NCBI RefSeq assembly: GCF_037126175.1
Contig: NZ_CP146986.1
Location: forward strand, 806,001-870,000
Reading direction: 5' to 3'
Source: Pseudomonas sp. RSB 5.4
Lineage (GTDB): Bacteria > Pseudomonadota > Gammaproteobacteria > Pseudomonadales > Pseudomonadaceae
DNA length: 64,000 nucleotides
Made by a program: the position numbers and the translations under genes. Below are positions 2,615 through 17,995 of the stretch, one piece after another. The notes below the pieces were generated by a model. That model was not told the origin of the DNA and searched no databases. It worked only from the letters and a program-made list of their open reading frames with translations. The stretch's first letter is position 1. Every line of letters begins with the position of its first letter.

Positions 2615-4423
2615 TCAGGCCTTGCGCGCTTCCTCTTCCAGTTGATCCGACTCGAACAACCGCGCCAGCTCCGCCCGGGCTTCCTGGGCGGTCTGCAGGA
2701 CTTTGGCGGCATCGTCGTAGACCGCGTGCTGGGCTTCCAGCACCTGTTCGTCGTGGTGCTTGAATCGCTTGATCCGCGCATCGGCCTGGGCCTGGGTCAG
2801 ACCGAGGCCGACCAGCGTGCGGCGGCTCATCTCCAGACTCGAATAGTAGGTTTCCCGAATCGGCTCGGCGCCGACATCGACCAAGCGGTGTACGTGCTGA
2901 CGGTTACGTGCGCGGGCGATGATCTTCATGTGCGGATACAGTTTGCGCACGATCTCGGCCGTCTTGATGTTGGTCTCCGGATCGTCCGTGGCAATCACGA
3001 AATACTCCGCCTCGCCGACCTTCGCCGCATGGAGGATTTCCGGACGCATCGGGTCGCCATAGAACACCGGCACACCGCCAAAACTGCGCGACAGCTCGAT
3101 GGTTTCCACCGACGTGTCCAGCGCTACGAACTTGATGTTCTGCGCGCGCAGAATCCGCGCCACGATCTGGCCCATCCGACCCATGCCGGCGATCACCACG
3201 CGCGGAGCCTCGGTGTCGATCTCGCGGAATTTCTCCGGCACCTCCACCGGCTGCACCTTGGGGCTGACCAGTCGCGCACAGATCAACAGCAGCAACGGCG
3301 TCAACGCCATCGACAGGGTGATGGTCAGCATCAGCAGGTCATACAGGCGCGGCTCGAACAGGCCCTGATCGCGCCCGATCTTGAACACCACAAAGGCAAA
3401 TTCACCACCCGCCGCGAGCACGATACCGAGGCGAATCGCACTGACCTTGGTCAGCCCGCCGGCCAGACGCCCGACCACAAACAGCAGCGGCAACTTCAAA
3501 CCGATCAGCAGCAGCGTCAGGCCCAACACGGTGATCGGTGCGCTGAGCAGCAGACTGAGGTTGGCGCCCATGCCGACGCTGATGAAAAACAACCCGAGCA
3601 GCAGGCCCTTGAACGGCTCGATCTGCGCTTCCAGTTCATGCCGATATTCCGAATCCGCCAGCAGCAGGCCGGCGAGGAAAGCCCCGAGCGCCATCGACAC
3701 GCCGACCAGATCCATCAGCCACGCCGTGCCGATCACCACCAGCAATGCGGTGGCGGTGGAGACTTCCGGCAGACCGGTTTTTGCCACCACGCGAAACACC
3801 GGGCGCAACAGATAACGTCCGCCGACCACCACCACGGCGATCCCGCCGAGCACCTGCAAACCATGATTGAGGCTTCCCGCGCTGCTGGTTTCGTGGCCGC
3901 CGCCAGCGAGCATTGGCACCAGTGCGATCAACGGGATCGCGGCGATGTCCTGAAACAGCAGAATCGCAAACGCCAGCCGCCCATGCGGGCTGGTCAGTTC
4001 CTTGCGCTCGGCCAGGCTTTGCAGGCCGAAAGCCGTGGACGACAGCGCCAGGCCAAGACCCAACACAATCGCACTGTTCAGTGGCTGACCGAACACGTAC
4101 AACGCCAGCACGCCGATCACCGCCGCCGTCAGTAGCACCTGCGCCAGGCCCACGCCGAATACCGACTTGCGCATCACCCACAAGCGGCGTGGCGACAGTT
4201 CAAGGCCGATGATGAACAACAGCAACACCACGCCCAGTTCCGAGATATGCGCAACGCTCTGCGGATTGCCGATCAGGCCGAGCACCGACGGGCCGATGAT
4301 CACCCCCGCCAACAGATAACCGAGCACCGCGCCCAATTGCAGACGCTTGGCCAAAGGCACGGTGAGCACGGCTGCGAAGAGAAACACGACAGCAGCTTGT
4401 AACAGGTTGCCTTCATGGGGCAT
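2615..4423 (-). CDS. Kef-type monovalent cation:proton antiporter (CPA2) with RCK/TrkA-N domain
   Basis: A 602-residue protein. The N-terminal two thirds (about residues 5-380) are hydrophobic, with roughly 12 membrane segments including the CPA2 stretch FIIGLELSPRRLW. A cytosolic RCK/TrkA-N domain follows, with the Rossmann motif GMGRMG near residue 415. A charged C-terminal helix rich in Glu and Arg ends the protein. This layout is KefB/KefC, which exports K+ in exchange for H+ and is gated by glutathione adducts in enterobacteria. It is monocistronic, and no KefF/KefG-type ancillary subunit is adjacent, so glutathione gating is uncertain. Confidence 0.9.
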   Translation of the reverse strand: MPHEGNLLQAAVVFLFAAVLTVPLAKRLQLGAVLGYLLAGVIIGPSVLGLIGNPQSVAHISELGVVLLLFIIGLELSPRRLWVMRKSVFGVGLAQVLLTAAVIGVLALYVFGQPLNSAIVLGLGLALSSTAFGLQSLAERKELTSPHGRLAFAILLFQDIAAIPLIALVPMLAGGGHETSSAGSLNHGLQVLGGIAVVVVGGRYLLRPVFRVVAKTGLPEVSTATALLVVIGTAWLMDLVGVSMALGAFLAGLLLADSEYRHELEAQIEPFKGLLLGLFFISVGMGANLSLLLSAPITVLGLTLLLIGLKLPLLFVVGRLAGGLTKVSAIRLGIVLAAGGEFAFVVFKIGRDQGLFEPRLYDLLMLTITLSMALTPLLLLICARLVSPKVQPVEVPEKFREIDTEAPRVVIAGMGRMGQIVARILRAQNIKFVALDTSVETIELSRSFGGVPVFYGDPMRPEILHAAKVGEAEYFVIATDDPETNIKTAEIVRKLYPHMKIIARARNRQHVHRLVDVGAEPIRETYYSSLEMSRRTLVGLGLTQAQADARIKRFKHHDEQVLEAQHAVYDDAAKVLQTAQEARAELARLFESDQLEEEARKA

Positions 4424-4967: not shown

Positions 4968-5293
4968 GTGAAGTTTTCATAAGGAATGAAACTTTGTATC
5001 TGGATTCCATTGGATCGGAACCGCTTCGATTTCGGCTCGATCAGCTCGTCCCCGGCATTTGCCCGGGAGCAGCTCAGGATCGTGCAGCGGCTGAAATCGC
5101 GACGTCATTGTCACGTCGTCAAAATCATGACAATCATTCGATAGAACCCCGGGAATTCGTGGGTTCAGCCGAGAACATCTCCTTTTCAAAAAGCCGAAAA
5201 GCCCCTGTGCACTCGCTTGTTTTCCAAGCCGCAGGTGACGCATTCGGCCGTGCGGGTCTGTGCGTTGAAAGTAAGGTTTTCACAAGGATTTGA
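4968..5293 (+). pseudogene. Decayed copy 1 of the 5' end of the downstream oxidoreductase gene
   Basis: The leader GTGAAGTTTTCATAAGG (4968-4984) is identical to that before the real gene (5661-5677). It is followed by a TTG at 4994 with AAGGA 8 bases upstream. The frame stays open for 99 codons to a TGA at 5291. Its start reads LYLDSIGSE where the real protein has MYLDSIDSE. Later SLSRRQNHDNHS lines up with TLSRIENYDSRS, and LVFQAAGDAFG with LLSQAALDRSNG. This covers roughly the first 75 residues of the 1215-residue enzyme. A translated leader peptide is the alternative reading. Confidence 0.65.
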
Positions 5294-5320
5294 GACTTTT
5301 TACTTGTATTTGATGGGGCA
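5271..5320 (+). pseudogene. Decayed copy 2 of the leader and start region
   Basis: GTAAGGTTTTCACAAGG (5271-5287) aligns without gaps to the functional leader with three changes. The next bases align to the first codons of the real gene (TACTTGTATTTGATGG against TACTTGGATTCCATTG). The frame is destroyed at once, and I do not see clear similarity beyond about 5320. Confidence 0.55.
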
Positions 5321-5440
5321 GTAACTCAAGTCAATCATTTTGTGGTTAACAACTGTTTGCGTGGTTTCCATAACTATCGCCTGTGCAAAATGGCGAGGCT
5401 GAGTTGTGCTTGCATTGGTGAACATACAAGTAGGTTTAAA

Positions 5441-5640
5441 GTAAAGTTTTCATAAGGAATTGAAGATTTGTACCGGGTTCTGCGCTGACTATTAAGAAAG
5501 ATTGAAATAACTCGATGTGTTCCCGAGATGTCGCGGAACCGTGCGAGTGCGTCTTTCTGCGCGTCTGGTCAGGTATTCATATCGCCCGAATCACCGTCGT
5601 GTTGCGGTCGAAAGTTTTGATGCAACCCTCTGCTGTAGTG
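5441..5640 (+). pseudogene. Decayed copy 3 of the 5' end of the downstream oxidoreductase gene
   Basis: GTAAAGTTTTCATAAGG (5441-5457) differs from the functional leader by one base. The start region is degenerate (TTGTACCGGGTTC) and hits an early stop. From about 5501 the DNA aligns again to codons 30-50 of the real gene: GATTGAAATAA with GATCGAAAACTA, CTCGATGT identical, and GCGTCTTTCTGCG with GCATCTTTCTCAG. About 12 bases are missing between the first two blocks. Frameshifts and stops make it non-coding. Confidence 0.55.
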
Positions 5641-5660
5641 CGCAAATAAGCACATTCAAT

Positions 5661-5690
5661 GTGAAGTTTTCATAAGGATTTGAAACTGTG
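5661..5690 (+). promoter_or_regulatory. Functional leader copy 4: ribosome binding site and GTG start
   Basis: GTGAAGTTTTCATAAGG (5661-5677) contains AAGGA at 5674-5678, 9 bases before the GTG at 5688. The same 17-mer occurs upstream at 4968 and, with small changes, at 5271 and 5441. Retention of this block above the rest of each copy hints at a function such as a regulator or RNA-binding site. Confidence 0.7.
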
Positions 5691-8600
5691 TACTTGGATT
5701 CCATTGATTCAGAACGTCAACGCCTGCAACCCGACAAACTCGCCGCTGATGAGGCGCAAACCACCTTGTCGCGGATCGAAAACTATGACAGCCGCTCGAT
5801 GTACTGCCGGGAACACGCGCAGCCCAACGAGCGCATCTTTCTCAGCGGCCAGCAGGCCCTGGTGAGATTGCTGCTGTCCCAGGCTGCCCTTGATCGATCC
5901 AACGGCATTCGCACCGCGGGATTCGTCAGCGGTTATCGCGGCTCGCCGCTGGGAGGCGTGGACCGCGAGCTGGTCAAGGCCCAGAGCGTTCTGGAAAACG
6001 CGAACATCCGCTTTCTGCCGGCGATCAACGAGGATCTGGCGGCAACGGCCCTGATCGGCACCCAGCGCGTCGAAACCGATCCGCAGCGTCTGTATGACGG
6101 CGTGTTTGGCATGTGGTACGGCAAGGGCCCGGGCGTCGATCGATCCGGCGACGCGATCAAACACGGCAGTTCCTATGGCTCGTCGCCCAACGGCGGGGTA
6201 CTGGTGGTTACCGGCGACGATCACGGTTGCGTGTCCTCGTCGATGTCCCACCAATCCGACCGCACGCTGATGGCCTGGGGCTTGCCGGTGATTCACCCGG
6301 CGGGACTGGCTGACTACGAACGCTGCGGCCTGTGGGGCTGGGCGCTGTCGCGTGTGTCCGGTTTGTGGGTGGGTTTCAAGGCAATCACCGAGACGGTCGA
6401 GGCAACGACTTCGGTTGAGTCCTCGCCGCTGCCCGAATTCGTTACCCCCGAGATCAATCCGGGACCGGACGGTCTGCACTGGCGCTGGCCGGATCTGCCG
6501 GGCATGCAGATCGAACGGCGCACCGCTTTCAAGTTCGATGCCGCCCGGGCCTTTGCCCTGGCCAACCCGATCGACACGGCGGTCACCGCGCCGGCACAAC
6601 CGACACTGGTCATCGCTGCGGTCGGCAAGGCCTATGGCGATGTACGCCAGGCCTTGCAGCAATGCGGCATTTCCCTCGAACAGCTGGAAAATGCTGGCGT
6701 TGCACTGCTCAAGATCAACCTGGTTTATCCGCTGTCGCCGGTGCTGGACGCCTGGACCCAGCGGGCCGGCAAGGTGCTGATCATCGAAGAGAAGCAGGCA
6801 ATCGTCGAAGAGCAGCTCAAGCAGAAGTATTACAACGCTGCCCACGACCAGCGTGCGGTGATCATCGGCAAGACCGACGAAAACGGCGCAGCGCTGATCT
6901 CCGATCACGAAGAGCTGCGCCCGTCGCGCATCGCCGCACTGCTGCAGCAGCGCCTGCCAGCTCTGGGGATCGAACCGAGCCTCCCGGATTTCTGGCTTAC
7001 GCCCTGCGTTTCGCGGGTTGAAGACTGGATCCGCCGCACGCCTTATTTGTGTTCGGGTTGCCCGCACAACACCTCGACCCAGGTGCCCAAGGGCAGTGAA
7101 GCGCGGCTCGGTATCGGCTGCCATGCCATGGCCGCACGCATGCCCGAACGCTCGACCACCGGCAGCGTGCAGATGGGCGGGGAAGGAGTCGACTGGCTGG
7201 GGCAGGCGCCGTTCGTGCAAACCCCGCACATCTTCCAGAACATTGGCGACGGCACTTTTTTCCACTCCGGATTCCTTGCGGTACGGCAGGCTATCGCGGC
7301 CGGCGCGACCATCACCTACAAACTGCTCTACAACGACGCGGTGGCCATGACCGGCGGCCAGCCTATCGACGGCAAGCTGACGGTGAAAAAAGCCGTCGAG
7401 CTGCTCAAGGCCGAAGGCGCCCAGCGAATCGTGGTGGTGGCGGACGACCTGCAACGCTATCAGGCGCATGACAGCCTGCCTCAGGGCATCGAAGTGTTTC
7501 ACCGGGAAAAGCTCGAGCAAGTGCAGCAGCAGTTGCGCGATACCCGTGGCGTCAGCGTGCTGATTTTCGATCAGGTCTGCGCGGTCGAAGGGCGTCGACG
7601 CAAGAAGCAATTGCCGGCGCCGTTGGTGAAGACCGAAGTGGTGATCAACGAAGCGGTCTGTGAAGGCTGTGGCGATTGCCAGGTCAAATCCAACTGCCTG
7701 TCGGTGATCCCGGTGCAAACACCGTTCGGCGCCAAACGCCGCATCGATCCGCACTCGTGCAATACCGATCTGTCGTGCATCAAGGGGTTCTGCCCAAGCT
7801 TCGTGACGGTGACCGGCAAGCCGCGGCAACGTCCGCGCAAACTGGCCGACAGCGCCGAAGTGCTGGCGTGGGCCGAAGCGCTGGCGCTGCCGCAGGCACC
7901 ACGGTCGCTCGACAGGCCGTATGAAATGCTTCTGGCCGGTGTCGGCGGTACCGGCGTCGTGACCGTGGCGCGGGCCATTGCCATGGCGGCCCACCTCGAC
8001 GGCCGCGCCGTCAGCGTGCTCGATTTCACCGGGTTCGCGCAGAAGGGCGGTGCGGTGTTGAGCCATGTGCGTCTGGCCGGTCATGCCAATGCGCTGCACC
8101 AGCACCGCATCGATATCGGCGGCGCCGACCTGCTGCTCGCGGCCGATCTGGTGGTGGCCAGCGAAGACGATGCACTGGCAACGCTGCGGCGGAAAAAAAC
8201 CCTGGTCATCGCCAACAGTGCGCTGACCCAGACCGGCGCGATGCTGCGTAACACGCAACTGAATATTGAAACCGACGCGATACAAGCGTTTTTGAAAGAG
8301 AAGGTCGGCGCCGAGCAGTTCCACAGTCTGGACGCCGGGCAGTTGGCGAACGCACTGGTCAGCCCGCTGCAGGCCAACATGTTGTTGCTCGGTTACGCCT
8401 GGCAGAAGGGCACGGTGCCGGTGTCGCTGCCGGCACTGCAGAAGGCCATCGATCTGGCCGGCAGCGCCGCTGCCAACCATCTGGCTTTCGCCTGGGGACG
8501 GTTGTGGGCGCAGGACTCGGCGTTTGCCGCGCCTTATCTCGATCAGCCAGTGGATGCCGTGTCGACGATTGCGATCCGCGACATCAGCGACATGCGCGGT

Positions 8601-9335
8601 CGCCGCGAAAGCCTTGAGCAACTGATCGACAACCGCAGCGAGTTCCTGACGGCCTATCAGAACGCAGCGTATGCGGCGCGTTATCGCAACGTCATCGAGC
8701 AGCTGCGGGCGCTGCCGGCGGCCGGTGATGAGAGTGCCTTGACCGAAGCAGTGGCACGCAACTTGTTCAAGCTGATGGCCTACAAGGACGAGTACGAAGT
8801 TGCGCGGCTGCTCACCACCCGCAGTTTCACCGACTCGCTCAAAGCCCGGTTCGACGGTGGCATTCGCCTGAAATTCCACTTTGCCTTGCCGCTGCTGCGC
8901 AAGAAGCAGGAAGGCACCGGCGAGCCGAAAAAGGTCGCTTTCTCCGGCTGGATTCTGCCGCTGCTGAAAGTGCTGGCCAAGGGCCGAGTGTTGCGTCACA
9001 CCCGGTTCGATCCGCTGGGCTTTTCCGCCGAGCGCCGCGAAGAACGCCGCTTGCTGAGTGACTACGAGCAAAACCTGCAGCGCCTGTTACCGAAACTGAA
9101 CTCGGACAACCTGTCGGCGTTCGTCGCATGGGCGAACCTGCCGGATTCGATTCGCGGCTACGGCCACGTCAAGGAGCGTTCGATCGCGGCGGCACGTCTG
9201 CGCGAGCAACAACTCATTGAACAGATTCTGGCGGACAAACCGGTCATTCACGGTGTCGAGTCGTGGCAGCCATCCACCGTCATCGCCAGGCAACTGAGCG
9301 CAGAAGAGGAACGCGACGTGATGGAAGCCTCCTGA
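5688..9335 (+). CDS. Fused indolepyruvate-type 2-oxoacid:ferredoxin oxidoreductase (IorA-IorB fusion)
   Basis: A 1215-residue single-chain enzyme expected to decarboxylate a 2-oxo acid (aryl or branched) to an acyl-CoA and reduce ferredoxin. The N-terminal pyruvate-oxidoreductase-like part has GFVSGYRGSPLGG near residues 80-92. The thiamine-diphosphate part has CSGCPHNTST near 454 and the Mg/TPP motif GDGTFFHSG near 520. Ferredoxin-like clusters follow (CEGCGDCQVKSNC near 658, then CNTDLSCIKGFC). The gamma or IorB-like domain starts near 748 with GVGGTGVVTVARAI. The GTG start was chosen for its Shine-Dalgarno. No ferredoxin gene is adjacent. As first gene of a biosynthetic operon it probably supplies an acyl-CoA starter; a purely catabolic aryl-pyruvate role is the alternative. 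Confidence 0.85.
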   Translation: MYLDSIDSERQRLQPDKLAADEAQTTLSRIENYDSRSMYCREHAQPNERIFLSGQQALVRLLLSQAALDRSNGIRTAGFVSGYRGSPLGGVDRELVKAQSVLENANIRFLPAINEDLAATALIGTQRVETDPQRLYDGVFGMWYGKGPGVDRSGDAIKHGSSYGSSPNGGVLVVTGDDHGCVSSSMSHQSDRTLMAWGLPVIHPAGLADYERCGLWGWALSRVSGLWVGFKAITETVEATTSVESSPLPEFVTPEINPGPDGLHWRWPDLPGMQIERRTAFKFDAARAFALANPIDTAVTAPAQPTLVIAAVGKAYGDVRQALQQCGISLEQLENAGVALLKINLVYPLSPVLDAWTQRAGKVLIIEEKQAIVEEQLKQKYYNAAHDQRAVIIGKTDENGAALISDHEELRPSRIAALLQQRLPALGIEPSLPDFWLTPCVSRVEDWIRRTPYLCSGCPHNTSTQVPKGSEARLGIGCHAMAARMPERSTTGSVQMGGEGVDWLGQAPFVQTPHIFQNIGDGTFFHSGFLAVRQAIAAGATITYKLLYNDAVAMTGGQPIDGKLTVKKAVELLKAEGAQRIVVVADDLQRYQAHDSLPQGIEVFHREKLEQVQQQLRDTRGVSVLIFDQVCAVEGRRRKKQLPAPLVKTEVVINEAVCEGCGDCQVKSNCLSVIPVQTPFGAKRRIDPHSCNTDLSCIKGFCPSFVTVTGKPRQRPRKLADSAEVLAWAEALALPQAPRSLDRPYEMLLAGVGGTGVVTVARAIAMAAHLDGRAVSVLDFTGFAQKGGAVLSHVRLAGHANALHQHRIDIGGADLLLAADLVVASEDDALATLRRKKTLVIANSALTQTGAMLRNTQLNIETDAIQAFLKEKVGAEQFHSLDAGQLANALVSPLQANMLLLGYAWQKGTVPVSLPALQKAIDLAGSAAANHLAFAWGRLWAQDSAFAAPYLDQPVDAVSTIAIRDISDMRGRRESLEQLIDNRSEFLTAYQNAAYAARYRNVIEQLRALPAAGDESALTEAVARNLFKLMAYKDEYEVARLLTTRSFTDSLKARFDGGIRLKFHFALPLLRKKQEGTGEPKKVAFSGWILPLLKVLAKGRVLRHTRFDPLGFSAERREERRLLSDYEQNLQRLLPKLNSDNLSAFVAWANLPDSIRGYGHVKERSIAAARLREQQLIEQILADKPVIHGVESWQPSTVIARQLSAEEERDVMEAS

Positions 9336-9339
9336 CGGA

Positions 9340-9353
9340 GGCTGGCGCCAGCC
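9340..9353. promoter_or_regulatory. Perfect 14-bp palindrome in an operon gap
   Basis: GGCTGGCGCCAGCC lies just after the oxidoreductase stop in the only sizeable gap (60 bases) of the front half of the operon. It may be an RNA-processing or attenuating hairpin that lowers expression of the genes behind it. No U-tract follows, so it is not a classical terminator. Confidence 0.35.
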
Positions 9354-9395
9354 CCGCACAAGAAAAAATACAACAACTACCGAGATGAGCTGACC

Positions 9396-10472
9396 ATGAT
9401 GAATAACGACAGCATTTCCCCCGACCTTCTGCACAAGGGTTCGGCTGACGACGTTTTGATTTGTGCACCGAGAGACGCATTGCCGCTGTATGTGAACGAA
9501 GCACTGATCGAGGCCAATGGGCATAACCCGTTGGTGCGCAATTACGTCGCGGGCGCCAACCAGCAGCGGCGCTTCGAGATTGCGCCCGTGTTGCAGAAGA
9601 AGAGCCGGATGGACGGCGTCGGTGCCGATGATGAATGGAACCAGGTGCGAGCACTGCCTTACCAGATCGTCGCCGCGCAACTGGAATCGGCTGAAGCAAG
9701 GATCGACAACCTGGAGTTTGCCGTCGCTGCCCTGTGCGAATCGATCGCGCCGATCCGCCGCGCCAGTTCGTTTCGCTTGATCAATAACGCCGACAACTAC
9801 TTCTTCTATCGCAAGGCGCACGAACATGTGCCGGGGACGATGTTCATCGAAGCGGCGCGTCAGGCGGTCTATCACCATTTGTACCATCACACCGATCATG
9901 CACGCGGCGCCGTCACCGTCAGCGTCAATGAGCTGAACGCGAGCTTTTTCGCCTACGCCGAGCTGATGTACCCGATCGAACTGGTGGTCGACAACATGAC
10001 CCCGAGCGATGCCACCTCACCGAAGAAAATCCATCTGCGGGTTGCGTTCTATCAGCGCCAGACGCTGTTCGCCACGGTCGATACCAAGGCCACGGTGATC
10101 GATATGCCGCTGTTCGAAAAGACCCGCAATATCTTCATCTACTCCAATGACTGGTTTGCACCGCTGCAGGCGTCGAAGCTGGCCTGCACGATCAGCGACC
10201 AGCAGGGGCGCAAGGCCCAGGTGCAACTGTTGGGTCTGGGCAAGACCGGTTGCGTAACGACCACGGCGGATCTGCCCGACCCGGTCACTCTGCACATCGT
10301 CTACGAAGGCAAGCTGAGTTTCACCGCCAGCATCCGTCGTGCCGGACAGGGCGAGCATGCGTCGTGGGAGTTTGCCGAGGTGGATTTCAGCGGTTTGCAG
10401 GTGATCAGCGACATGATCAAGCGCGGCTTTGTTCACCTCGATGAGCCGGCGCTGGCGGCGCTGAAGCAATGA
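9396..10472 (+). CDS. AfsA-like hotdog protein (butenolide/gamma-butyrolactone synthase family)
   Basis: A 358-residue protein with two AfsA-type hotdog halves. The first opens with LLHKGSADDVLIC near residue 12. The second holds HVPGTMFIEAARQA near residues 145-158, the AfsA-family helix motif. In streptomycetes AfsA couples a beta-ketoacyl thioester to dihydroxyacetone phosphate to form the butenolide precursor of A-factor-type hormones. That substrate pair is known for the family and not shown here. Two ATGs occur in tandem (9396 and 9399); the first is used. The gene overlaps the next by ATGA, so it belongs to one operon with the flavin reductase, SDRs and ACPs. Confidence 0.75.
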   Translation: MMNNDSISPDLLHKGSADDVLICAPRDALPLYVNEALIEANGHNPLVRNYVAGANQQRRFEIAPVLQKKSRMDGVGADDEWNQVRALPYQIVAAQLESAEARIDNLEFAVAALCESIAPIRRASSFRLINNADNYFFYRKAHEHVPGTMFIEAARQAVYHHLYHHTDHARGAVTVSVNELNASFFAYAELMYPIELVVDNMTPSDATSPKKIHLRVAFYQRQTLFATVDTKATVIDMPLFEKTRNIFIYSNDWFAPLQASKLACTISDQQGRKAQVQLLGLGKTGCVTTTADLPDPVTLHIVYEGKLSFTASIRRAGQGEHASWEFAEVDFSGLQVISDMIKRGFVHLDEPALAALKQ

Positions 10473-11650
10473 GCAAAGAAAACCCAAGCTTGCAGGCGGC
10501 CACCCAGGCGCTGCATTTCGGCGCGCATGCAGTGGCGAAAAACCGACTGTATTTTTCTTCGCTCGGCATGGATCTGTGTGACGAACACGGCTTTCCGCTG
10601 CCAGCGTTTTTTTCGGTTTATCAAGCCTTGATGGTCGGCGGCGCCGGCTTCGGTTTTCTCGGCAATGCCAGCGTGGACGCCGATGCGCGGTACAACAGCC
10701 GCGGTCTGCGCCTGACTTCGGCAGCCCACGCGCAGGCCCTGCGGCCGCTGTTTGAAGCGGCACGGGAGCGTGGTTTTCCGCTGGGGGTGCAATTGCAGCA
10801 TTACGGGCCGCAGTCTTTGCCGTCGAAGCAAGGGATCATTCTGACGCCCAGCGGTATCGCCTCACCGACGGTGCTCAGTGCCCATCCCCAGGCTCGGGCA
10901 GTGGCGATGTCAGAGGCGCAGATTCAGCGCTGCATCGAGCAGTTCTGCGCTGCCGCCCGTTACGCGCAACAGGCCGGCGCCACGCTGATTCAGTTGCAGG
11001 CGTCCAACGGCTATTTGATCAGCAGCTTTCTCTCGCCAAAGACCAATCAACGCGAGGATGACTGGGGCGGTACGCCGCTCAAGCGCGCCAGGTTGCTGCT
11101 GGCGATTGTCGAAGGCATTCGCCAGGCCACCGACCACAAAGTGGCCGTCACCGTGCGCCTGGGCATGGACGACGGTCTCGGTGAAGAAGGCCAGCACGCG
11201 GCGCTGTTGGGTGACGTCGTCGCGGCGCTGGAAGCCAGCGGGGTCGCAGCGATTACCTGCTCGCTGGGTATCAGCGAGACCTTCCGCTTCTTTTTCAAGA
11301 ACACCGAACAAGCCTTGGCCATGTCGCGGGAGGGCTGCCGCTATCTGAAACGCTTCGTGCGCATTCCGCTGGGGTTTACCGGCTCGGTGGCAGACGTGGC
11401 GCAAGCCAACGAAATCATCGCCAGCGGCGATGCCGATTTTGTCGGCTTCGGCCGCGCCATGCTCGCCGACAACCACTTTGTCGCCAAGCAACTGGCGGGG
11501 CGAGCGGATCAGGTCAACCGCTGTCGAGGCGATGCCTTTTGTTTTCGCGACAAAAAAGAACCGATGGCCGAGCGCGTCTACTGCTGCGTCAATCCTGACT
11601 ATCGACGGCCAGAACAACTACAACAGCACTACGAGGAAAACCTGAAATGA
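10469..11650 (+). CDS. OYE-like NADH:flavin oxidoreductase (atypical active site)
   Basis: A 393-residue TIM-barrel flavoprotein of the old yellow enzyme family. GVQLQHYGPQS near residue 106 matches the FMN/substrate loop. FLSPKTNQREDDWGGTPLKR is the conserved stretch after the active-site strand. The usual His-x-x-His/Asn pair that anchors the substrate carbonyl is replaced by Gln177-Ala-Ser-Asn180. A Cys-rich tail (RCRGDAFCF, YCC) follows. Within this operon it could reduce an enone or butenolide double bond, the job of BprA in A-factor synthesis, but that is inference. It overlaps both neighbours by ATGA. Confidence 0.82.
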   Translation: MSKENPSLQAATQALHFGAHAVAKNRLYFSSLGMDLCDEHGFPLPAFFSVYQALMVGGAGFGFLGNASVDADARYNSRGLRLTSAAHAQALRPLFEAARERGFPLGVQLQHYGPQSLPSKQGIILTPSGIASPTVLSAHPQARAVAMSEAQIQRCIEQFCAAARYAQQAGATLIQLQASNGYLISSFLSPKTNQREDDWGGTPLKRARLLLAIVEGIRQATDHKVAVTVRLGMDDGLGEEGQHAALLGDVVAALEASGVAAITCSLGISETFRFFFKNTEQALAMSREGCRYLKRFVRIPLGFTGSVADVAQANEIIASGDADFVGFGRAMLADNHFVAKQLAGRADQVNRCRGDAFCFRDKKEPMAERVYCCVNPDYRRPEQLQQHYEENLK

Positions 11651-12420
11651 ACTTCACCGCCAAGATCGCCCTTGTTGTCGGGGGCACACGCGGGATCGGT
11701 TTCGATGTCAGCCAGAAACTCATCGAAGCCGGCTGCATCTGCTACATCACCGGCCGCAACGAAGACGACGGCCTGACGGCGCAAAGTCGCCTCGGCGACA
11801 ACTGCACGTTCATCAAAAGTGACGTCACCGACGAAGCCTCGGTCATCGAGCTGTTCCGTATCATCAATGACAAACACGGCCGACTCGATCTGGCCGTGAA
11901 CAATGCCGGCGTCACCTCCAGACATGCACCGATCCGCGACATGGATTTCCCTGACTGGAAACGCGTGCTGGAGATCAACCTGCTGGGCCCGCTGCTGTTG
12001 CTCAAGCACGAGACCAATCTGATCTCGAAGCATGCGGGTGGCTCGATCGTGAACGTCTCGTCCTGCGCCGGTCTGCTGGGGGTTGCCAGACAAAGCGCCT
12101 ATTCCACCAGCAAGGCTGCGCTGAACATGCTGACTCAGGTCTGCGCGATTGAATGCGCTGAAGAGGCTTTGCCTGAGCGGCATTCGATTCGCGTCAACGC
12201 CGTGTGCCCGGGCCCGACGCTGGGCGGCATGAACTCCGAGGAACGCCTGAAAGCCAATCCGGAATCCACCAGGCACAAGTTGCAGGTCACGGCGATGAAG
12301 CGCTTCGCCAATCCCGGTGAAATCTCTGCCGCGATCCTGTGGCTGCTCAGTGATGCCTCTTCGTTTGTCACTGGCACCGTAATGCCGGTAGATGGCGGCT
12401 TCTCCGCCGGTAAATTCTGA
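11647..12420 (+). CDS. Short-chain dehydrogenase/reductase, SDR 1
   Basis: A 257-residue classical SDR. The cofactor motif GGTRGIG lies near residues 13-19, NNAGV near 90, the catalytic Ser in NVSSCAGL, and YSTSK as the YxxxK pair. The C-terminal NAVCPGP and FVTGTVMPVDGG stretches resemble FabG-type 3-oxoacyl reductases. It probably reduces a keto group on an ACP- or butenolide-type intermediate of this cluster. The start overlaps the upstream stop by ATGA. The exact substrate cannot be read from the sequence. Confidence 0.85.
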   Translation: MNFTAKIALVVGGTRGIGFDVSQKLIEAGCICYITGRNEDDGLTAQSRLGDNCTFIKSDVTDEASVIELFRIINDKHGRLDLAVNNAGVTSRHAPIRDMDFPDWKRVLEINLLGPLLLLKHETNLISKHAGGSIVNVSSCAGLLGVARQSAYSTSKAALNMLTQVCAIECAEEALPERHSIRVNAVCPGPTLGGMNSEERLKANPESTRHKLQVTAMKRFANPGEISAAILWLLSDASSFVTGTVMPVDGGFSAGKF

Positions 12421-13238
12421 TGCACACGGTCAAGCGTAATCCCGGCGCTGGCTCGCGCGAGAAGGGCAAACACCGGGTGTTCATCACCGGTGTGAGCAGC
12501 GGTATCGGCGAGGCGCTGGCGCAGCTGCATCTGCAAAACGGCCATACGGTTTTTGGCACCGCACGGCGTCAGCCCTATGCACTGATGGACCATCCGAATT
12601 TCCGTTTTCGGCCGTTCGATCTCTCGCGGCCGAGTGAGATGGGCGAGCTGTTCAAGGACAACTTTGCCGAGGTTCTGGAGCAAGGCGTCGACCGGTTTTT
12701 CCTCAATGCCGGGGTCAGCGGCAACGTGCCGGGGCGTGGCGGTGACTTCACCCTGGACGAATTGCAGCATGTGCTCAACGTCAATGTGCTGGCCAACAAG
12801 GCCATTCTCGATCTGATGTTGGCTTCGGCACAGCGGCCGGCGACCTGCGTGCTGTCGGCCTCGATGGCTGGCGTGCGCTTTCGCGCGGGTACGCTGCCGT
12901 ACAGCCTGTCGAAAGCCGCGCTGGCGGCATTGGCCGGCGTCTACGCCGAAGAAAACCCGGAGATCTTTTTTGCCGTACTCGGCCTGTGCAACGTCGACAC
13001 CGGTTTGTCGCGGCAGGTGAGTTTCAGCCAGCGCACCGCTGACTTCGCCGACCTCAAGTCGCTGCAACAACGAGCCCTGGCGCCCGGCTACATGGTGTCG
13101 CCGGCGCAACGTGCGAAAGACATCCTGGCGGTGATTGACGCGCCCGAAGCTTACGGGATCAAGAGCGGAATCTTCGTCGACATGCGCACGGCGCTGGCCG
13201 ATCACCAGAAAGCGCACCCGCCATTGTCCCAAGCGTAG
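12420..13238 (+). CDS. Short-chain dehydrogenase/reductase, SDR 2
   Basis: A 272-residue SDR, divergent from the one before it. TGVSSGIGEALAQLH is the nucleotide-binding motif near residues 25-39, FLNAGVSGN the NAG motif, and YSLSKAAL the YxxxK catalytic pair. About 20 basic residues precede the Rossmann start, so translation may begin slightly downstream. I kept the ATG at 12420 because its A is the last base of the upstream stop codon, a typical coupled arrangement. A second ketoreductase suggests that two carbonyls are reduced in the pathway. Confidence 0.82.
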   Translation: MHTVKRNPGAGSREKGKHRVFITGVSSGIGEALAQLHLQNGHTVFGTARRQPYALMDHPNFRFRPFDLSRPSEMGELFKDNFAEVLEQGVDRFFLNAGVSGNVPGRGGDFTLDELQHVLNVNVLANKAILDLMLASAQRPATCVLSASMAGVRFRAGTLPYSLSKAALAALAGVYAEENPEIFFAVLGLCNVDTGLSRQVSFSQRTADFADLKSLQQRALAPGYMVSPAQRAKDILAVIDAPEAYGIKSGIFVDMRTALADHQKAHPPLSQA

Positions 13239-13279
13239 TGAACGCAGGGACCTGCATCAGCCAATAAAGGAATGTTGGA

Positions 13280-13594
13280 ATGTTCAATCAAGTCAAAGCG
13301 CTGACCGAGTCAGCCGTTCGGCAACAGGATCTGTTGTTGAGCACCCCGATCGATTTGTCCCGTGGGGAAGACAGCCGCCTCTATGGTGTGGACGGCAGCA
13401 TCGACTCCCTGACCCTGGTTTCGATCATCGTCGATGTCGAGGAAAAGCTGCGCAGCCAGCTGGGCGTTGACGTGCGTCTGGCCGATACCAGCGACCTGCC
13501 CGACACCGCCACACCGTTTGCCACGCTGGGCACGCTGATCGCCTACATCATGGATCGGCTGTCGGCGGCGCAAGCACAAACTCAAGCGGTTTGA
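13280..13594 (+). CDS. Acyl carrier protein 1
   Basis: A 104-residue acidic helical protein. Ser43 in GSIDSLTLV is the expected 4'-phosphopantetheine attachment site at the start of helix 2. It is longer than a housekeeping ACP, with about 20 additional N-terminal residues and an Ala/Gln-rich tail. An AAAGGAA Shine-Dalgarno precedes the ATG. It sits between the SDR pair and the acyl ligase, so it may be the carrier loaded by that ligase. No phosphopantetheinyl transferase is encoded nearby, so the housekeeping enzyme must serve it. Confidence 0.8.
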   Translation: MFNQVKALTESAVRQQDLLLSTPIDLSRGEDSRLYGVDGSIDSLTLVSIIVDVEEKLRSQLGVDVRLADTSDLPDTATPFATLGTLIAYIMDRLSAAQAQTQAV

Positions 13595-13612
13595 TCGAAC
13601 GACGGGGTGTGT

Positions 13613-14968
13613 ATGCAAGTTGAAGAATTTCTGGCGCATCTGCAAAGCGTCGGCAACCAAGCGGCGATTGTCAGCGATGAGGGCCGCTTTACCTATGATC
13701 AGTTGCATCAGCAGATAACCGCCTACGGCGAAGAGCTGGCGGCAAAATCCGTGCGCGATTCGAGTGTGTTGCTGGTCGACAACTACAGCTTCAACAGCGT
13801 GTGCATGCTGTTCGCGCTGTGGCTGCACAACAACGTGGTCGCGCTTTCCGTACCCAAGGACGAGGAGCAACTGGCGAATCTGGCGGGCGCTGCGGGGGCA
13901 CGGTTTTCCGTGATCGGCGGGGCGCCGGAGTTTGCGGTTATCCGTCACAACAACAGTCGGGTGCCGCCGACCGTCGACGGTCTGCTGTCGCGTCGTCAGG
14001 CCGGTTTCATCGTGTTTTCCTCAGGCTCGACAGGTCCGGCCAAAGGCGTGGTGCATGCCATTTCGCCGTTCTTCGAGCGCTATCTGAGTGCTGAGCGTTG
14101 CGGCGCGATTCTGGCGTTTTTACTGTTCGATCACATCGGCGGTCTGGTCACGGTTCTGCAGGCGCTGGCTACCCACGGCACGTTGATCCTGCCCAAGGAG
14201 CGCTCGCCGCAAGAGGTCGGTCGCTGCATCGAATCGTTCAATGTGCAGACCCTGCATGTATCGCCGACGCTGCTCAATCTGGCGACGGTCACCGGCGTCT
14301 TCCAGAAGTGGGACACCCGCAGCCTGGAGCGCATCTATTTCGGCTCGGAGCCGAGTTCACCGCAAGCGATTCAGCGCATTGCCAGCCTGCTGCCACAAGT
14401 GCAGTTGCAGCAGTTGTACGGGATGTCGGAAATCGGCGTGCTGCCATGTCGCAGCAAGGACGGTGACAGCGCGTGGATGAAGATCGACGATCCGAACTAC
14501 AGCCTGCGGGTGGTCGACGGCATTTTGCAGGTGCGCGGGGCGACCAACATGCTCGGCTACCTGGCCAGCGTCGGTGACCTGTCGAGCGATGGCTACCTGA
14601 TCACCCACGATCTGGCCGAGGAACATGAAGGCTACTTTCGGGTGACCGGGCGGGCGGTCGATCTGATCAATGTCGGCGGCAAGAAGGTGTTTCCGTCGCA
14701 CGTGGAAAGCGTGCTGATGGGCCTGGAAAACGTCTCCGACGTGGTCGTCTACGCGCAGCCGAATCCGCTGCTCGGGCAGATCGTTGCCGCGCGGTTCACG
14801 CTGATCGAGCCGGAGGCGCTGGAGGCGTTCAAGGTTCGCTTGTATCAACACGTTCGCGGTGTCCTGGCGCAGGAGCAACTGCCCAGGGTGGTCTCCATTG
14901 CCGAGACCCCGCTGTACACCAGCCGTTTCAAGAAAATGCGTCACCCCGGCGTTCTCGCCCAGTCGTGA
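13613..14968 (+). CDS. AMP-dependent acyl ligase (ANL superfamily)
   Basis: A 451-residue adenylate-forming enzyme. VFSSGSTGPAKGVVHAI near residue 136 is the A3 phosphate loop, LYGMSEIGVL the A5 motif, TGRAVDLINVGGKKVFP the A8 hinge, and TSRFKKMR near the C terminus carries the candidate catalytic Lys. It is short for an acyl-CoA synthetase (usually 500-550), resembling standalone ligases that load small acids on carrier proteins. I prefer ATG 13613, because the GTG at 13607 lies inside the GGGG ribosome-binding stretch. Flanked by two ACPs, it probably activates a carboxylic acid as AMP ester for transfer to one of them. Confidence 0.82.
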   Translation: MQVEEFLAHLQSVGNQAAIVSDEGRFTYDQLHQQITAYGEELAAKSVRDSSVLLVDNYSFNSVCMLFALWLHNNVVALSVPKDEEQLANLAGAAGARFSVIGGAPEFAVIRHNNSRVPPTVDGLLSRRQAGFIVFSSGSTGPAKGVVHAISPFFERYLSAERCGAILAFLLFDHIGGLVTVLQALATHGTLILPKERSPQEVGRCIESFNVQTLHVSPTLLNLATVTGVFQKWDTRSLERIYFGSEPSSPQAIQRIASLLPQVQLQQLYGMSEIGVLPCRSKDGDSAWMKIDDPNYSLRVVDGILQVRGATNMLGYLASVGDLSSDGYLITHDLAEEHEGYFRVTGRAVDLINVGGKKVFPSHVESVLMGLENVSDVVVYAQPNPLLGQIVAARFTLIEPEALEAFKVRLYQHVRGVLAQEQLPRVVSIAETPLYTSRFKKMRHPGVLAQS

Positions 14969-15004
14969 GACCGGTTTACTCATCACGTTATAAGGAAATG
15001 ACAA

Positions 15005-15247
15005 ATGGTTGATCTGGTAAAAATGCGCGAAAGCATCGCTGAAATCCTGTCCATCCCGGTGGACAAACTGCACGGTGAGACTCGGCTGGAAAACAGCGAG
15101 AACTGGGACTCGATGGCGCGAATCGGGATTATCGCGCTGGTGTTCGAACAAGTCGGTGTGAGCGTGTCGGGCGAGGAGATCGAGCGCGTGGTCACGGTGC
15201 AGGATCTGTTCGATCTGATCGACGGGAAAATCAAGGACGCCGCATGA
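15005..15247 (+). CDS. Acyl carrier protein 2
   Basis: An 80-residue ACP of normal length. Ser36 in ENWDSMARIG is the phosphopantetheine site. AAGGA lies 8 bases before the ATG. Its stop overlaps the KAS III start by ATGA, so this ACP and the condensing enzyme are translationally coupled and probably work together: the ACP holds malonyl or beta-ketoacyl units for the KAS III. It is clearly different in sequence from the first ACP of the operon, suggesting separate roles for starter and extender. Confidence 0.85.
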   Translation: MVDLVKMRESIAEILSIPVDKLHGETRLENSENWDSMARIGIIALVFEQVGVSVSGEEIERVVTVQDLFDLIDGKIKDAA

Positions 15248-16299
15248 GCCTGCTGACCATTGAGGGCGTCGTCATTCGGGCGGTCACAGCGGCACTGCCT
15301 GAGCGGCGGGTGACCGAGGCGGACTTCGCCGAACTGTTCGGCGCCAAGGAAGTTGAGCGCATCACCAAGAGCACCGGCATCCAATCGATCCGCGAAACCA
15401 AAACCCTGTACACCTCCGATCTGATCATCGCCGCATGCCGCAACCTGCTCGATCAAGGGCATGCTGCGGCAGGGGAGATCGATGGTTTGATCGTGGTGAC
15501 CCAGACCCCGGATTCCTGGGTGCCGGGTGTCGGTTTCGTGGTGCAGCAGGCGCTCGGCCTGCCACAGCATTGTCTGGTGCTGAACGTGGCCGCTGGCTGC
15601 TCCGGCTACATCAGCGCGCTGGTCCAGGCGGGGGCGCTGATCTCCTCCGGCGCCTGCAAGAAGATCCTGCTGTGCACTGGCGACGTCACCACGCGGATCC
15701 TCGACGAGCGCGACCGTCACGTGAAAATGCTGTTTGGTGACGCCGCTTCGGCGACCTTGCTGGAAGCGGGTGAAGGCAAATTCGAATTCATCTGCGGTGC
15801 CGACGGCAGCGGCGGTACTGCGCTGCAGTCCGACATTGCCTACGCCAGAGAGGAGGGCAATCCGGTCTGCGCGACTATCCAGCGCTTGCAGATGGACGGC
15901 ACGGCGGTGATGAATTTTGCCCTGAGCCGTGTACCGCAGACCGTCAAGGCCTTGCTCGATGCCACGGGGTTGAGTCCGGCTACGCTGGACTTGCTGGTGC
16001 TGCATCAGGCGAACGAGTTCATGCTCAACTACCTGCGGCGGATGATTGGTGTGGCGCCGGAGAAAATGCCGGTCGACATCGATGGCGTTGGCAACACCAG
16101 CTCCACCTCGATTCCGATCGTGTTGTCGCGCCACGCCGCGATGGGTACGCCGCAGGCTGAACACGTTGTGCTGTGCGGTTTCGGTGCCGGGTTGTCGTGG
16201 GGCGCGTTGAAGGCGGACCTGCGCCAGACCGTCGCCGTGGCGCCTTGCGATGTGCCGGAAAAAATCGCTCAGGCAGTCAGTGAGCGTTTGCAAGCCTGA
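15244..16299 (+). CDS. 3-oxoacyl-ACP synthase III (KAS III) family condensing enzyme
   Basis: A 351-residue thiolase-fold enzyme with a full KAS III triad: Cys119 in NVAAGCSGYI, His254 in LHQANEFM and Asn284 in GVGNTSSTSIP. It should condense an acyl-CoA starter with a malonyl-ACP to give a beta-ketoacyl-ACP. The starter could be the acyl-CoA made by the operon's first enzyme, or an acyl group delivered by the ligase. It differs from housekeeping FabH in the entrance region, so starter choice cannot be told. It is the last gene of the tightly overlapped block. Confidence 0.88.
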   Translation: MSLLTIEGVVIRAVTAALPERRVTEADFAELFGAKEVERITKSTGIQSIRETKTLYTSDLIIAACRNLLDQGHAAAGEIDGLIVVTQTPDSWVPGVGFVVQQALGLPQHCLVLNVAAGCSGYISALVQAGALISSGACKKILLCTGDVTTRILDERDRHVKMLFGDAASATLLEAGEGKFEFICGADGSGGTALQSDIAYAREEGNPVCATIQRLQMDGTAVMNFALSRVPQTVKALLDATGLSPATLDLLVLHQANEFMLNYLRRMIGVAPEKMPVDIDGVGNTSSTSIPIVLSRHAAMGTPQAEHVVLCGFGAGLSWGALKADLRQTVAVAPCDVPEKIAQAVSERLQA

Positions 16300-16310
16300 A
16301 TAAGGCAATA

Positions 16311-16358
16311 CACGGCAGCTTCGCGGCGATGCCCGCATCCACCCGCAAAGCTGCCGTG
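16311..16358. terminator. Hairpin after the KAS III gene, possible terminator
   Basis: CACGGCAGCTT (16311-16321) and AAGCTGCCGTG (16348-16358) form a perfect 11-bp inverted repeat around a 26-base loop. No T-run follows, so it is either a weak or Rho-assisted terminator or an mRNA-stabilising hairpin closing the operon core. Confidence 0.4.
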
Positions 16359-16396
16359 CCCGGGTTCAAATCGACTGATCGAACGAGACAGCTGTC

Positions 16397-17020
16397 ATGA
16401 GCCGCACCTTCTGCAACGCACTGGGCATCATCGGGCGCAAGGATAATCTGCTATGGGAATATCCTTCGCCGTTTCTTCCGCTGTTCCAGTTTCACGAGCG
16501 CCATGAGTCAGGCCCGATTCGTGCGCAACCCGAGGCCATCATCGCCGCAGTTTGCGCGCTGAACATGCGCGATGACCGCGTCGTCGATGCGCTGCTGTGC
16601 CTGCGCGAACTGCCGGGGAAAATACTGCGCACGTTTGGCGACCGAACAGTGCCGCAGGAAACTGTGCCGTTCGGCTTTGACGCTTTCACCTTGCTCGAAC
16701 GCACTTCGACTGAAGTGTCTCTAGGCCTGGCCGGACGCTTCTGGCGCCCTGATCTGAAGACCGGTCACATCGCTGACGCTCAAGCATTCAAAGTCCTGGA
16801 TGACCCACACGTAGCCAAACTGGTGCTGCGTTTTCAGGTCGTCGAACACCCTCAAGGCAGGCGTACGCTGCGCACCGAAACCTTCGTGTATTGCGCCACC
16901 ACGCGCAGCAAAATGCTGTTTACCCCTTACTGGCTGTTGATTCGTCTGGCCAGCGGCTGGATTCGGCGACGCAACCTTGCTGCCATCCAGCGGCAATTTT
17001 CGACGGAACGGGTTGTGTAA
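16397..17020 (+). CDS. SRPBCC/START-like protein of unknown function
   Basis: A 207-residue protein with no sure functional match. The core FTLLERTSTEVSLGLAGRFW near residue 98 and the ending FTPYWLLIRLASGWIRRR look like a widespread SRPBCC-like family of about 200 residues with a hydrophobic ligand cavity. The region around HERHESGPIRAQPEAIIAAV fits the first strand and helix of that fold. It lies 97 bases after the KAS III gene, beyond a hairpin, on the same strand. It might bind or cyclise the cluster product, but nothing in the sequence proves that link. Confidence 0.6.
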   Translation: MSRTFCNALGIIGRKDNLLWEYPSPFLPLFQFHERHESGPIRAQPEAIIAAVCALNMRDDRVVDALLCLRELPGKILRTFGDRTVPQETVPFGFDAFTLLERTSTEVSLGLAGRFWRPDLKTGHIADAQAFKVLDDPHVAKLVLRFQVVEHPQGRRTLRTETFVYCATTRSKMLFTPYWLLIRLASGWIRRRNLAAIQRQFSTERVV

Positions 17021-17080: not shown

Positions 17081-17995
17081 ATGGCCATCAACTTCGACCT
17101 CAACGACCTGCAAGCCTTTCGCGCTGTGGTCGAACAGGGCAGTTTCCGCAAGGCCGCCGACACTGTGCGCCTGTCTCAACCGGCCCTGAGCCGACGTATC
17201 GAAAAGCTCGAAGACGCCCTCGGTGTAAAACTGTTCGAACGCACCACGCGCAAGGTCAGCCTGACCCAGGCCGGACGCGGCTTCATGCCCAGCGTCGAGC
17301 GTTTGCTCGATGACCTGGACGTGGCGTTGCTGGGCATCAGCGAAGTGGCTTCGACCCGGCTCGGTCATGTCACTGTGGCCTGCGTGCCTTCGGCGGCGTA
17401 CTACTTCATGCCGCGAGTGGTCGCCCGCTATCACCAGCAATTCCCGCGTATCAAAGTCAAAGTCCTCGATTCCAGTGCCCACGACGTGCTCAGCGCAGTG
17501 GTCAACGGCGAGGCGGATTTCGGTTTGAGTTTCATGGGGACCCAGGAGGCCAAAGTCGAATTCGAACCGCTGGTGCAGGAAAGCTACGTGGTCGCGTGTC
17601 GTCGCGATCACCCGTTGGCCGGACGCAGCAGCGTGACCTGGGACGAGTTCTATCAGCAGGATTACATCTCGCTCGACAAGACTTCCGGCAACCGTTTTCT
17701 GCTCGATCAGGCCTTGAGCGGCGTCGTGCCGCAACGCCCGAGCATCTGCGAGACACGGCATGTGACGACGATGATTGGGCTGGTGGAGGCGGGGCTAGGG
17801 GTGGCGGCGGTGCCGCTGATGGCGATGCCCGGGCCGGATCATCCGATCCTGACCCGGGTGCCGCTGACCGATCCGCAGGTGATGCGCAGTGTCGGCATCA
17901 TCAAGCGCCGGGATCGTACGTTGACCCCGGCAGCACTGGAGCTGGAACGGCTGGTGGTGGAAATGAAAGTCCAGCCGCCGCCGATCAGCGCTTGA
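17081..17995 (+). CDS. LysR-family transcriptional regulator
   Basis: A 304-residue LysR protein. The winged HTH spans about residues 8-66 (LQAFRAVVEQGSFRKAADTV, then QPALSRRIEKLEDALG). A two-lobed effector domain follows. It starts 60 bases after the SRPBCC-like gene on the same strand and ends 11 bases inside the convergent ModA-like gene. It may control the biosynthetic cluster upstream or the ModA-like/MFS pair downstream; orientation does not decide. No Cys or other unusual sensor residue stands out. Confidence 0.88.
   Translation: MAINFDLNDLQAFRAVVEQGSFRKAADTVRLSQPALSRRIEKLEDALGVKLFERTTRKVSLTQAGRGFMPSVERLLDDLDVALLGISEVASTRLGHVTVACVPSAAYYFMPRVVARYHQQFPRIKVKVLDSSAHDVLSAVVNGEADFGLSFMGTQEAKVEFEPLVQESYVVACRRDHPLAGRSSVTWDEFYQQDYISLDKTSGNRFLLDQALSGVVPQRPSICETRHVTTMIGLVEAGLGVAAVPLMAMPGPDHPILTRVPLTDPQVMRSVGIIKRRDRTLTPAALELERLVVEMKVQPPPISA

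Follow-up and report, generated by a model that had tools for sequence, protein, structure and literature searches.

What does the block of ten genes at positions 5688-17020 of this stretch of Pseudomonas sp. RSB 5.4 DNA make? The window, i.e., the whole stretch of 64,000 nucleotides analysed here, comes from a genome (G000) of 6.24 Mb in one contig; below, G labels denote genomes and L labels denote sequence stretches around a match. All ten genes lie on the + strand in the order IOR-AfsA-OYE-SDR1-SDR2-ACP1-LIG-ACP2-KAS3-SRPBCC, which includes an indolepyruvate-type 2-oxoacid ferredoxin oxidoreductase (IOR), an old yellow enzyme-type flavin reductase (OYE), short-chain dehydrogenases (SDRs), acyl carrier proteins (ACPs), and an acyl-AMP ligase (LIG) (Table 1). 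The families assigned to these co-directional genes in an earlier note on this DNA were confirmed, with the provisos that ACP1 has no family match and that the SRPBCC protein is recognized by its predicted fold only. The comparisons described below identify the block as a real, conserved, horizontally acquired, and dedicated biosynthetic operon. Judged from the encoded families, its product would be a small diffusible metabolite of the butenolide or butyrolactone type, a tentative reading that is given somewhat less than an even chance.

The AfsA-like protein, searched at an E value of 0.001 against 398 Pseudomonas genomes, had matches in 12 of them (the own genome included); its close form, with at least 70% identity, was found in three, G000, G055, and G347, and a scan of the genome contigs yielded 30 loci. 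The G055 locus (L002) is identical in DNA to L014, so that G055 is taken to be P. fluorescens HKI0874; the G347 loci L003 and L060 are likewise identical. The complete ten-gene set is present in the same order in L014, L015 (P. bananamidigenes), L017 (Pseudomonas sp. H1h), and L016 (the gammaproteobacterial metagenome-assembled genome [MAG] Hainich-H32), the last of which has one additional flavodoxin-like gene ahead of the SRPBCC gene. In G347, the order is matched up to the end of the stretch, which falls inside the KAS III gene. The concern of the earlier note that these genes might not be kept together in other strains can thus be dropped.

A kefB-like gene forms the left flank in five Pseudomonas loci (the window, L014, L015, L017, and L060), and lysR, followed by genes for a ModA-like solute-binding protein and a major facilitator superfamily (MFS) transporter, forms the right flank in all four loci where it was read. 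KefB, searched in 59 Pseudomonas genomes, had matches in 45, and the best 30 of these 45, including the own one, were taken as loci. Among the 29 others, lysR directly adjoins kefB in 12, the block is present in one (G055), and no close lysR was found within the 1.5 kb read in 16, one of which has a 34% LysR piece. Because kefB and lysR are neighbors in 12 of these 29 loci, the block is seen as inserted between them. The LysR protein is 97%, 93%, and 100% identical to that of the window in L014, L015, and L017, respectively, at or above the values for the block genes; it is therefore assigned to the flank and is probably not part of the inserted block. As a core gene that adjoins kefB in genomes without the block, it was also set aside as a candidate regulator of the cluster. 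Nine of the ten block genes are under purifying selection between the window and L014 (Nei-Gojobori dN/dS of 0.03 to 0.17). The ACP2 gene (15005-15247) gave 1.7 in that comparison, from a dN of 0.09 and a dS of only 0.05 in a short gene of 80 codons; against L017 and L015, dN/dS is below 0.45 for all ten genes.

In the proposed pathway, the oxidoreductase would act on a 2-oxo acid, branched or aromatic, to yield an acyl-CoA together with reduced ferredoxin, and LIG with ACP2 could load an acid by another route. KAS III would then condense the starter once with malonyl-ACP to a 3-oxoacyl-ACP1, which the AfsA-like hotdog enzyme would join to a triose, a C3 unit like dihydroxyacetone phosphate, to form a butenolide. 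The OYE would reduce a C=C bond, the SDRs would set the oxidation level of the ketone and the alcohol, and the SRPBCC protein would steer cyclization. By a hand count from the A-factor scheme, compounds such as C10H18O4 (isovaleryl starter) or C13H16O4 (phenylacetyl starter) can be expected. Active-site motifs are retained: the KAS III proteins match both Pfam halves and have the Cys in 15 of 15 loci and the His and Asn in 14 of the 14 where they were read, the DS motifs of the carrier proteins are conserved across loci, and Y-x3-K is present in all 29 SDR1 matches and all 26 SDR2 matches, some of the latter being cross-hits to SDR1.

The AfsA-like protein scored 46.9 bits against PF03756, above the curated cut-off of 24. 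The AfsA-type E-x2-R-Q motif is kept in 31 of 31 loci, and the E/D-H-V/I-P-G and E-A-A-R-Q motifs are common to the window family and to the Streptomyces ScbA/BarX proteins of L063 and L064. It is not an ordinary AfsA, a correction to the earlier note: its predicted fold (pLDDT 87.4) has a single split hotdog, at about residues 4-52 and 118-237, and a C-terminal PilZ-like fold at 248-346, and it has one AfsA stretch versus two in each of the Streptomyces proteins. PilZ receptors of c-di-GMP carry the motifs R-x3-R and [D/N]-x-S-x2-G. The former was found in 4 and the latter in 2 of 36 sequences, and the window protein has neither, so that c-di-GMP control through this domain was set aside. A class-wide PF03756 search (E value of 0.001) matched 4 of 321 genomes, the own included, with the control silent in 14; a search of plasmids with the AfsA-like protein gave no match. 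In a solved-structure search, the AfsA alignment had a single hit, 7ue2_A, no stretch of which passed alone.

The HMMER alignment of the window OYE with the E. coli 2,4-dienoyl-CoA reductase (FadH; 1ps9) runs across the FadH cysteine region, where the OYE has the motif C-x2-D-x2-C-x13-CC-VNP. In FadH, the cysteines of this region hold a 4Fe-4S cluster. An OYE match was found in 36 of the 41 loci examined (L002 and L003 among the 36 repeat the genomes of L014 and L060), and all 36 have the four Cys residues (C-x5-C, then CC before VN), with a spacing that differs from that in FadH; the third place after the first Cys is Asp or Asn in 34 and Glu in two. At 393 residues versus 671, the OYE lacks the second half of FadH and is therefore likely to use an external electron donor. 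Ferredoxin reduced by IOR is a candidate for this role, a suggestion against which it counts that most OYE-bearing clusters have no IOR match.

Fused oxidoreductases matching IOR at an E value of 1e-50 were found in 39 of 119 Pseudomonas genomes, the own included, where IOR matched only itself. Among the matches listed, the G055 copy, from the same cluster, is 93% identical and those from the other 37 genomes are 41 to 48% identical. In a tree of six cluster-linked and seven unlinked copies, which are 41 to 47% identical to each other across the two groups, the cluster copies are separated from the others by a branch supported at 100/100 (the program warned of long branches, above all for G059). 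IOR can accordingly be placed, as far as such a tree goes, in a cluster-only clade. A solved-structure search with IOR gave no match. In the stretches examined, IOR was seen only in the Pseudomonas/Hainich-MAG form of the cluster. Because related clusters that have KAS III, carriers, and in part the ligase have no IOR, the oxidoreductase is taken as accessory, not central, to the pathway.

These related clusters were compared over 40 loci, a gene being counted as lacking when tblastn gave no match in the stretch examined. The AfsA-OYE-SDR core recurs with differing partners in Pseudomonas, Oceanospirillum, Pseudoalteromonas, Photobacterium, Rahnella, Xenorhabdus, Rhizobium, Paracoccus, and Methylosinus. 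All ten genes (form A) are found in the window, L014-L017, and L060. Form A', which lacks IOR, is represented by L022 (Oceanospirillum), where ACP2 was not detected either, and L024 (Pseudoalteromonas). Form B (KAS3-AsnB-AfsA-OYE-SDR1-SDR2-ACP1) occurs in L021 (Photobacterium), L023 (Rhizobium), L025 (Pseudoalteromonas), L026 (a Glaciimonas MAG), and L042 (Rahnella); all five encode an F420-type oxidoreductase and four a phosphopantetheinyl transferase. AsnB, encoded beside KAS III and AfsA, is asparagine-synthetase-like (by Pfam in L021), and no acyl ligase match was seen; an amide or lactam product is conceivable for this form. In L026, distant LuxI and LuxR matches are located further off. 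Form C combines MFS, AfsA, ACP1, SDR, LIG, and KAS3 without an OYE in the MAG loci L018-L020, with a different order in L020 and no ACP2 detected in L019.

The remaining forms are shorter. In form D, confined to Pseudomonas, a LuxR/LuxI pair directly precedes AfsA-OYE(-SDR1); it accounts for 9 of the 40 AfsA loci (L027-L030, L033, L034, and the short stretches L009, L010, and L013, which end before SDR1). In L027, Pfam confirms the autoinducer synthase and autoinducer-binding domains, and the arrangement suggests an AfsA pathway controlled by acyl-homoserine lactones. G347 has both the ten-gene form and, as a second cluster (L013), the LuxI-linked one. Form E, AfsA-OYE-SDR often accompanied by an NQO/flavodoxin-like gene, was found in L032, L035-L040, and the short L004-L008. 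In L031, AfsA-OYE-SDR1 is joined only by a distant ligase match, and the OYE is missing from L041 and L043. Both ACP1 and KAS III are found with AfsA in all six loci that have IOR (one of them the window), in two that lack it, in the five AsnB loci, in three of the MFS/monooxygenase type, and in the P450 locus. Because the LuxI-linked and most other short-form loci have no match to KAS III, ACP1, or the ligase in about 20 kb of sequence, the core does not need them.

How far, then, does the butenolide reading hold? The part of the earlier proposal that stands is a single dedicated and conserved operon with an oxidoreductase of its own, the six cluster IORs forming one group; the part that does not is the plain AfsA enzyme. 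MmyC of the methylenomycin pathway is a KAS III. A precedent for the proposed order is seen in that pathway, where the butenolide synthase MmyD is proposed, in the available part of the report, to take acetoacetyl-MmyA, a product of MmyC, as its 3-oxoacyl partner (PMC12593393). Several points weigh on the other side. The AfsA-like protein scored 37.3 bits against the ScbA/BarX equivalog NF041195, below its cut-off of 200, and its predicted architecture is unlike the tandem Streptomyces type. A-factor synthesis uses a phosphatase, and no phosphatase gene was recognized in the block. LIG is redundant for a single starter beside an oxidoreductase that makes acyl-CoA. Finally, forms D and E lack KAS III and ACP1, as well as the acyl ligase except for L031 and two cluster-14 ORF matches; no KAS III, ACP1, or ligase match lies within roughly 20 kb in, e.g., L027-L030 and L033-L036.

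The same logic could also lead to a different ring, with the AfsA-like enzyme joining a 3-oxoacyl-ACP to another sugar or keto partner and the SDRs, OYE, and SRPBCC protein closing a methylenomycin- or syringolide-like cyclopentanone or furan; this is possible but doubtful. The AvrD-like family is distinct from AfsA. It is to this family that MmyD is assigned in the part of PMC12593393 available, which counts against such a ring. Still less probable is a noncondensing hotdog enzyme that performs a thioesterase- or dehydratase-like step on acyl-ACPs, with an unusual reduced acyl chain as the product. At the position that we take, from a hand alignment, to be that of the FabZ catalytic histidine, a tyrosine (Y138) is found without exception in the hotdog family (36 of 36), and the motif beside it is that of the AfsA proteins. 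That the operon serves to break down 2-oxo acids, aromatic or branched, in line with the presumably mostly catabolic IOR family enzymes of those 39 genomes, is highly improbable, as KAS III, two carrier proteins, and AfsA are at odds with catabolism and the cluster oxidoreductase forms a separate clade.

The butenolide reading also has to be set against the systems already described. The earlier note regarded a Gram-negative pathway of this kind as new; as such it is not, and AfsA clusters outside actinomycetes are already published. Competitor killing by Ruegeria pomeroyi DSS-3 depends on an AfsA cluster, an "A-factor-like" cluster with an AfsA-like protein is named in Pseudomonas Ps664, and "AfsA" and "butenolide" are frequent terms in a paper on a Burkholderia gladioli glutarimide polyketide synthase (PKS), a trans-AT system versus the stand-alone enzymes seen here (PMC7426152, PMC8719888, and PMC7756379, respectively, each as far as its text was available). 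The R. pomeroyi cluster resembles the window operon in being Gram-negative, with an essential AfsA, and in the horizontal acquisition thought likely by its authors; by the description in the accessible text, it differs in having further biosynthetic proteins, three regulators, a transporter, and hypothetical proteins, and the terms "ketoacyl" and "old yellow" are absent from that main text (PMC7426152). The Streptomyces A-factor/SCB pathways share the PF03756 hotdog, its two motifs, and an NAD(P)H-binding/SDR protein annotated near ScbA/BarX in L063 and L064; the window operon differs from them in the single AfsA stretch, the PilZ-like fold, and the presence of a KAS III, carriers, and a ligase of its own, and no regulator of the ScbR type was recognized. 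The methylenomycin cluster likewise supplies a 3-oxoacyl carrier thioester to a butenolide synthase and has a flavin enzyme, but by the partial description available its synthase is AvrD-like and neither an acyl ligase nor a 2-oxoacid oxidoreductase is named (PMC12593393).

A further AfsA cluster, with a P450, a thioesterase, and two MFS genes, was seen in L059 (7840-18214; G005) and resembles the published "A-factor-like" description; we infer that it and Ps664 carry the same cluster. It shares with the window an AfsA-like protein, two ACPs, an SDR, KAS III, a ligase, and MFS genes; it differs in its short AfsA protein, P450, and thioesterase and in the lack of OYE, oxidoreductase, and SRPBCC matches. 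As to the identity of G005, P. chlororaphis was considered and set aside; a PhzA/B search gave no match, and its control matched nowhere either. In L061 (9840-13091; G286), an AfsA domain is combined with ketosynthase and carrier domains in a PKS protein that resembles "PKS 1" of PMC8719888, as described in the part available. Pseudomonas aureofaciens 63-28 makes (Z)-4-hydroxy-4-methyl-2-(1-hexenyl)-2-butenolide, C11H16O3; a later strain paper annotated the same butenolide by mass and pointed only to an unknown "butyrolactone" cluster (PMC10192879, in the text available). By hand count, its carbons fit the AfsA-like arithmetic of a C8 3-oxoacyl unit plus C3, which may bear on this family, and the L059 cluster is a possible source of such butenolides.

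Judged from search results only, no published account of this gene set was recognized in the literature searched. New here are the AfsA architecture of a hotdog with a PilZ-like fold, the OYE cysteines at the FadH site, the cluster-only oxidoreductase clade, and the leader element described below. Actinomycetes are the best-known source of AfsA-type signals and antibiotics. An AfsA-OYE-SDR module that recurs in many Gram-negative bacteria, in Pseudomonas sometimes next to LuxI/LuxR, would mean that a source of diffusible signals or antibiotics has been overlooked; the operon is compact enough for transfer into a laboratory host.

The operon is preceded by copies of an element of ~28 nucleotides with the consensus AGTTTTCATAAGGATTTGAAACTTTGTA, in which GGA lies between the arms of a weak dyad. 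Four copies are present in the window (the first displaced by a one-base deletion), three each in L014, L017, and L060, and two in L015; all 15 are in the sense orientation, and GGA is invariant in them. At up to 3 mismatches, genomes G000, G055, and G347 each have three copies, all forward, all before this operon, and none elsewhere; none was found in G005 or G019 or with the reversed control pattern. No copy precedes IOR in L016 at up to 9 mismatches, or was found in 15 loci of other forms (L016 included) at up to 7. The last copy (5665) carries a Shine-Dalgarno-like AAGGA before the GTG start at 5688; an alternative ATG start at 5799 would give an oxidoreductase of 1178 residues. Sites of CsrA/RsmA present GGA in the loop of a hairpin, and a leader often has several such sites, with one at the Shine-Dalgarno site (PMC7652899, in the part available). 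Against an Rsm-type reading, only 2 of the 15 copies fold clearly better than shuffles (z of -2.7 and -2.8) and the best fold pairs the GGA in three; the dyad is paired in 91.8% of cells, above any slid version (at most 58.8%) but not above column shuffles (92.5%); and no pair is changed on both sides in the 15 copies. Such hairpins controlling translation belong to a joint reading in which a proteobacterial AfsA pathway, distinct from that of Streptomyces, would use a PilZ-domain hotdog and a stand-alone Fe-S OYE, with IOR both making the starter and supplying the OYE with reduced ferredoxin, and in which this operon would be the best-equipped form; as a whole, this joint reading is unlikely. 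The copies might instead act as an operator at the DNA level, or they might be left over from small duplications of the 5' end of the oxidoreductase gene. By eye, the open frame at 4995-5293, after the first element, resembles part of the oxidoreductase N terminus in a decayed state, with a DNA identity of 85.7% over 56 bases. Sigma-70-like sites and terminators are no more frequent in the region than in shuffled sequences.

Table 1. Coordinates of the operon, its leader, and the adjoining genes in the window
Feature	Positions	Strand	Matches and remarks
KefB-like cation/proton antiporter	2615..4423	-	PF00999 + PF02254; left flank of insertion
Leader, four copies of the ~28-nt element at 4972, 5275, 5445, 5665	4972..5692	+	
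IOR, fused 2-oxoacid (indolepyruvate-type) ferredoxin oxidoreductase, 1215 aa	5688..9335	+	NF009588, 1549 bits
AfsA-like protein	9396..10472	+	PF03756; predicted split single hotdog + PilZ-like fold
OYE-type flavin reductase	10469..11650	+	PF00724
SDR1 short-chain dehydrogenase	11647..12420	+	PF13561/PF00106
SDR2 short-chain dehydrogenase	12420..13238	+	PF00106
ACP1 acyl-carrier-like protein	13280..13594	+	Named from DSL motif; no family match
LIG acyl-AMP ligase	13607..14968	+	PF00501, 88.6 bits; PF13193, 30.7 bits
ACP2 acyl carrier protein	15005..15247	+	PF00550, 21.5 bits (cut-off 20.8)
KAS III	15244..16299	+	PF08545/PF08541; Cys-His-Asn motifs
SRPBCC/Bet v 1-like protein	16397..17020	+	SRPBCC-likeness by predicted fold only
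LysR regulator	17081..17995	+	PF00126/PF03466; flanking core gene

Some relatives of the SRPBCC gene carry the name DUF2867 in one source. As a cluster marker, this protein was rejected: it had matches in 10 of 398 genomes of the phylum (the own included), and the eight of those loci that were read (L050-L057) had no other query gene within 1.5 kb. Elsewhere in the window, positions 22775-22862 on the - strand match the C4 antisense RNA of Rfam (RF01695; 71 bits, cut-off 45), a type of RNA known from P1/P4-like phages.
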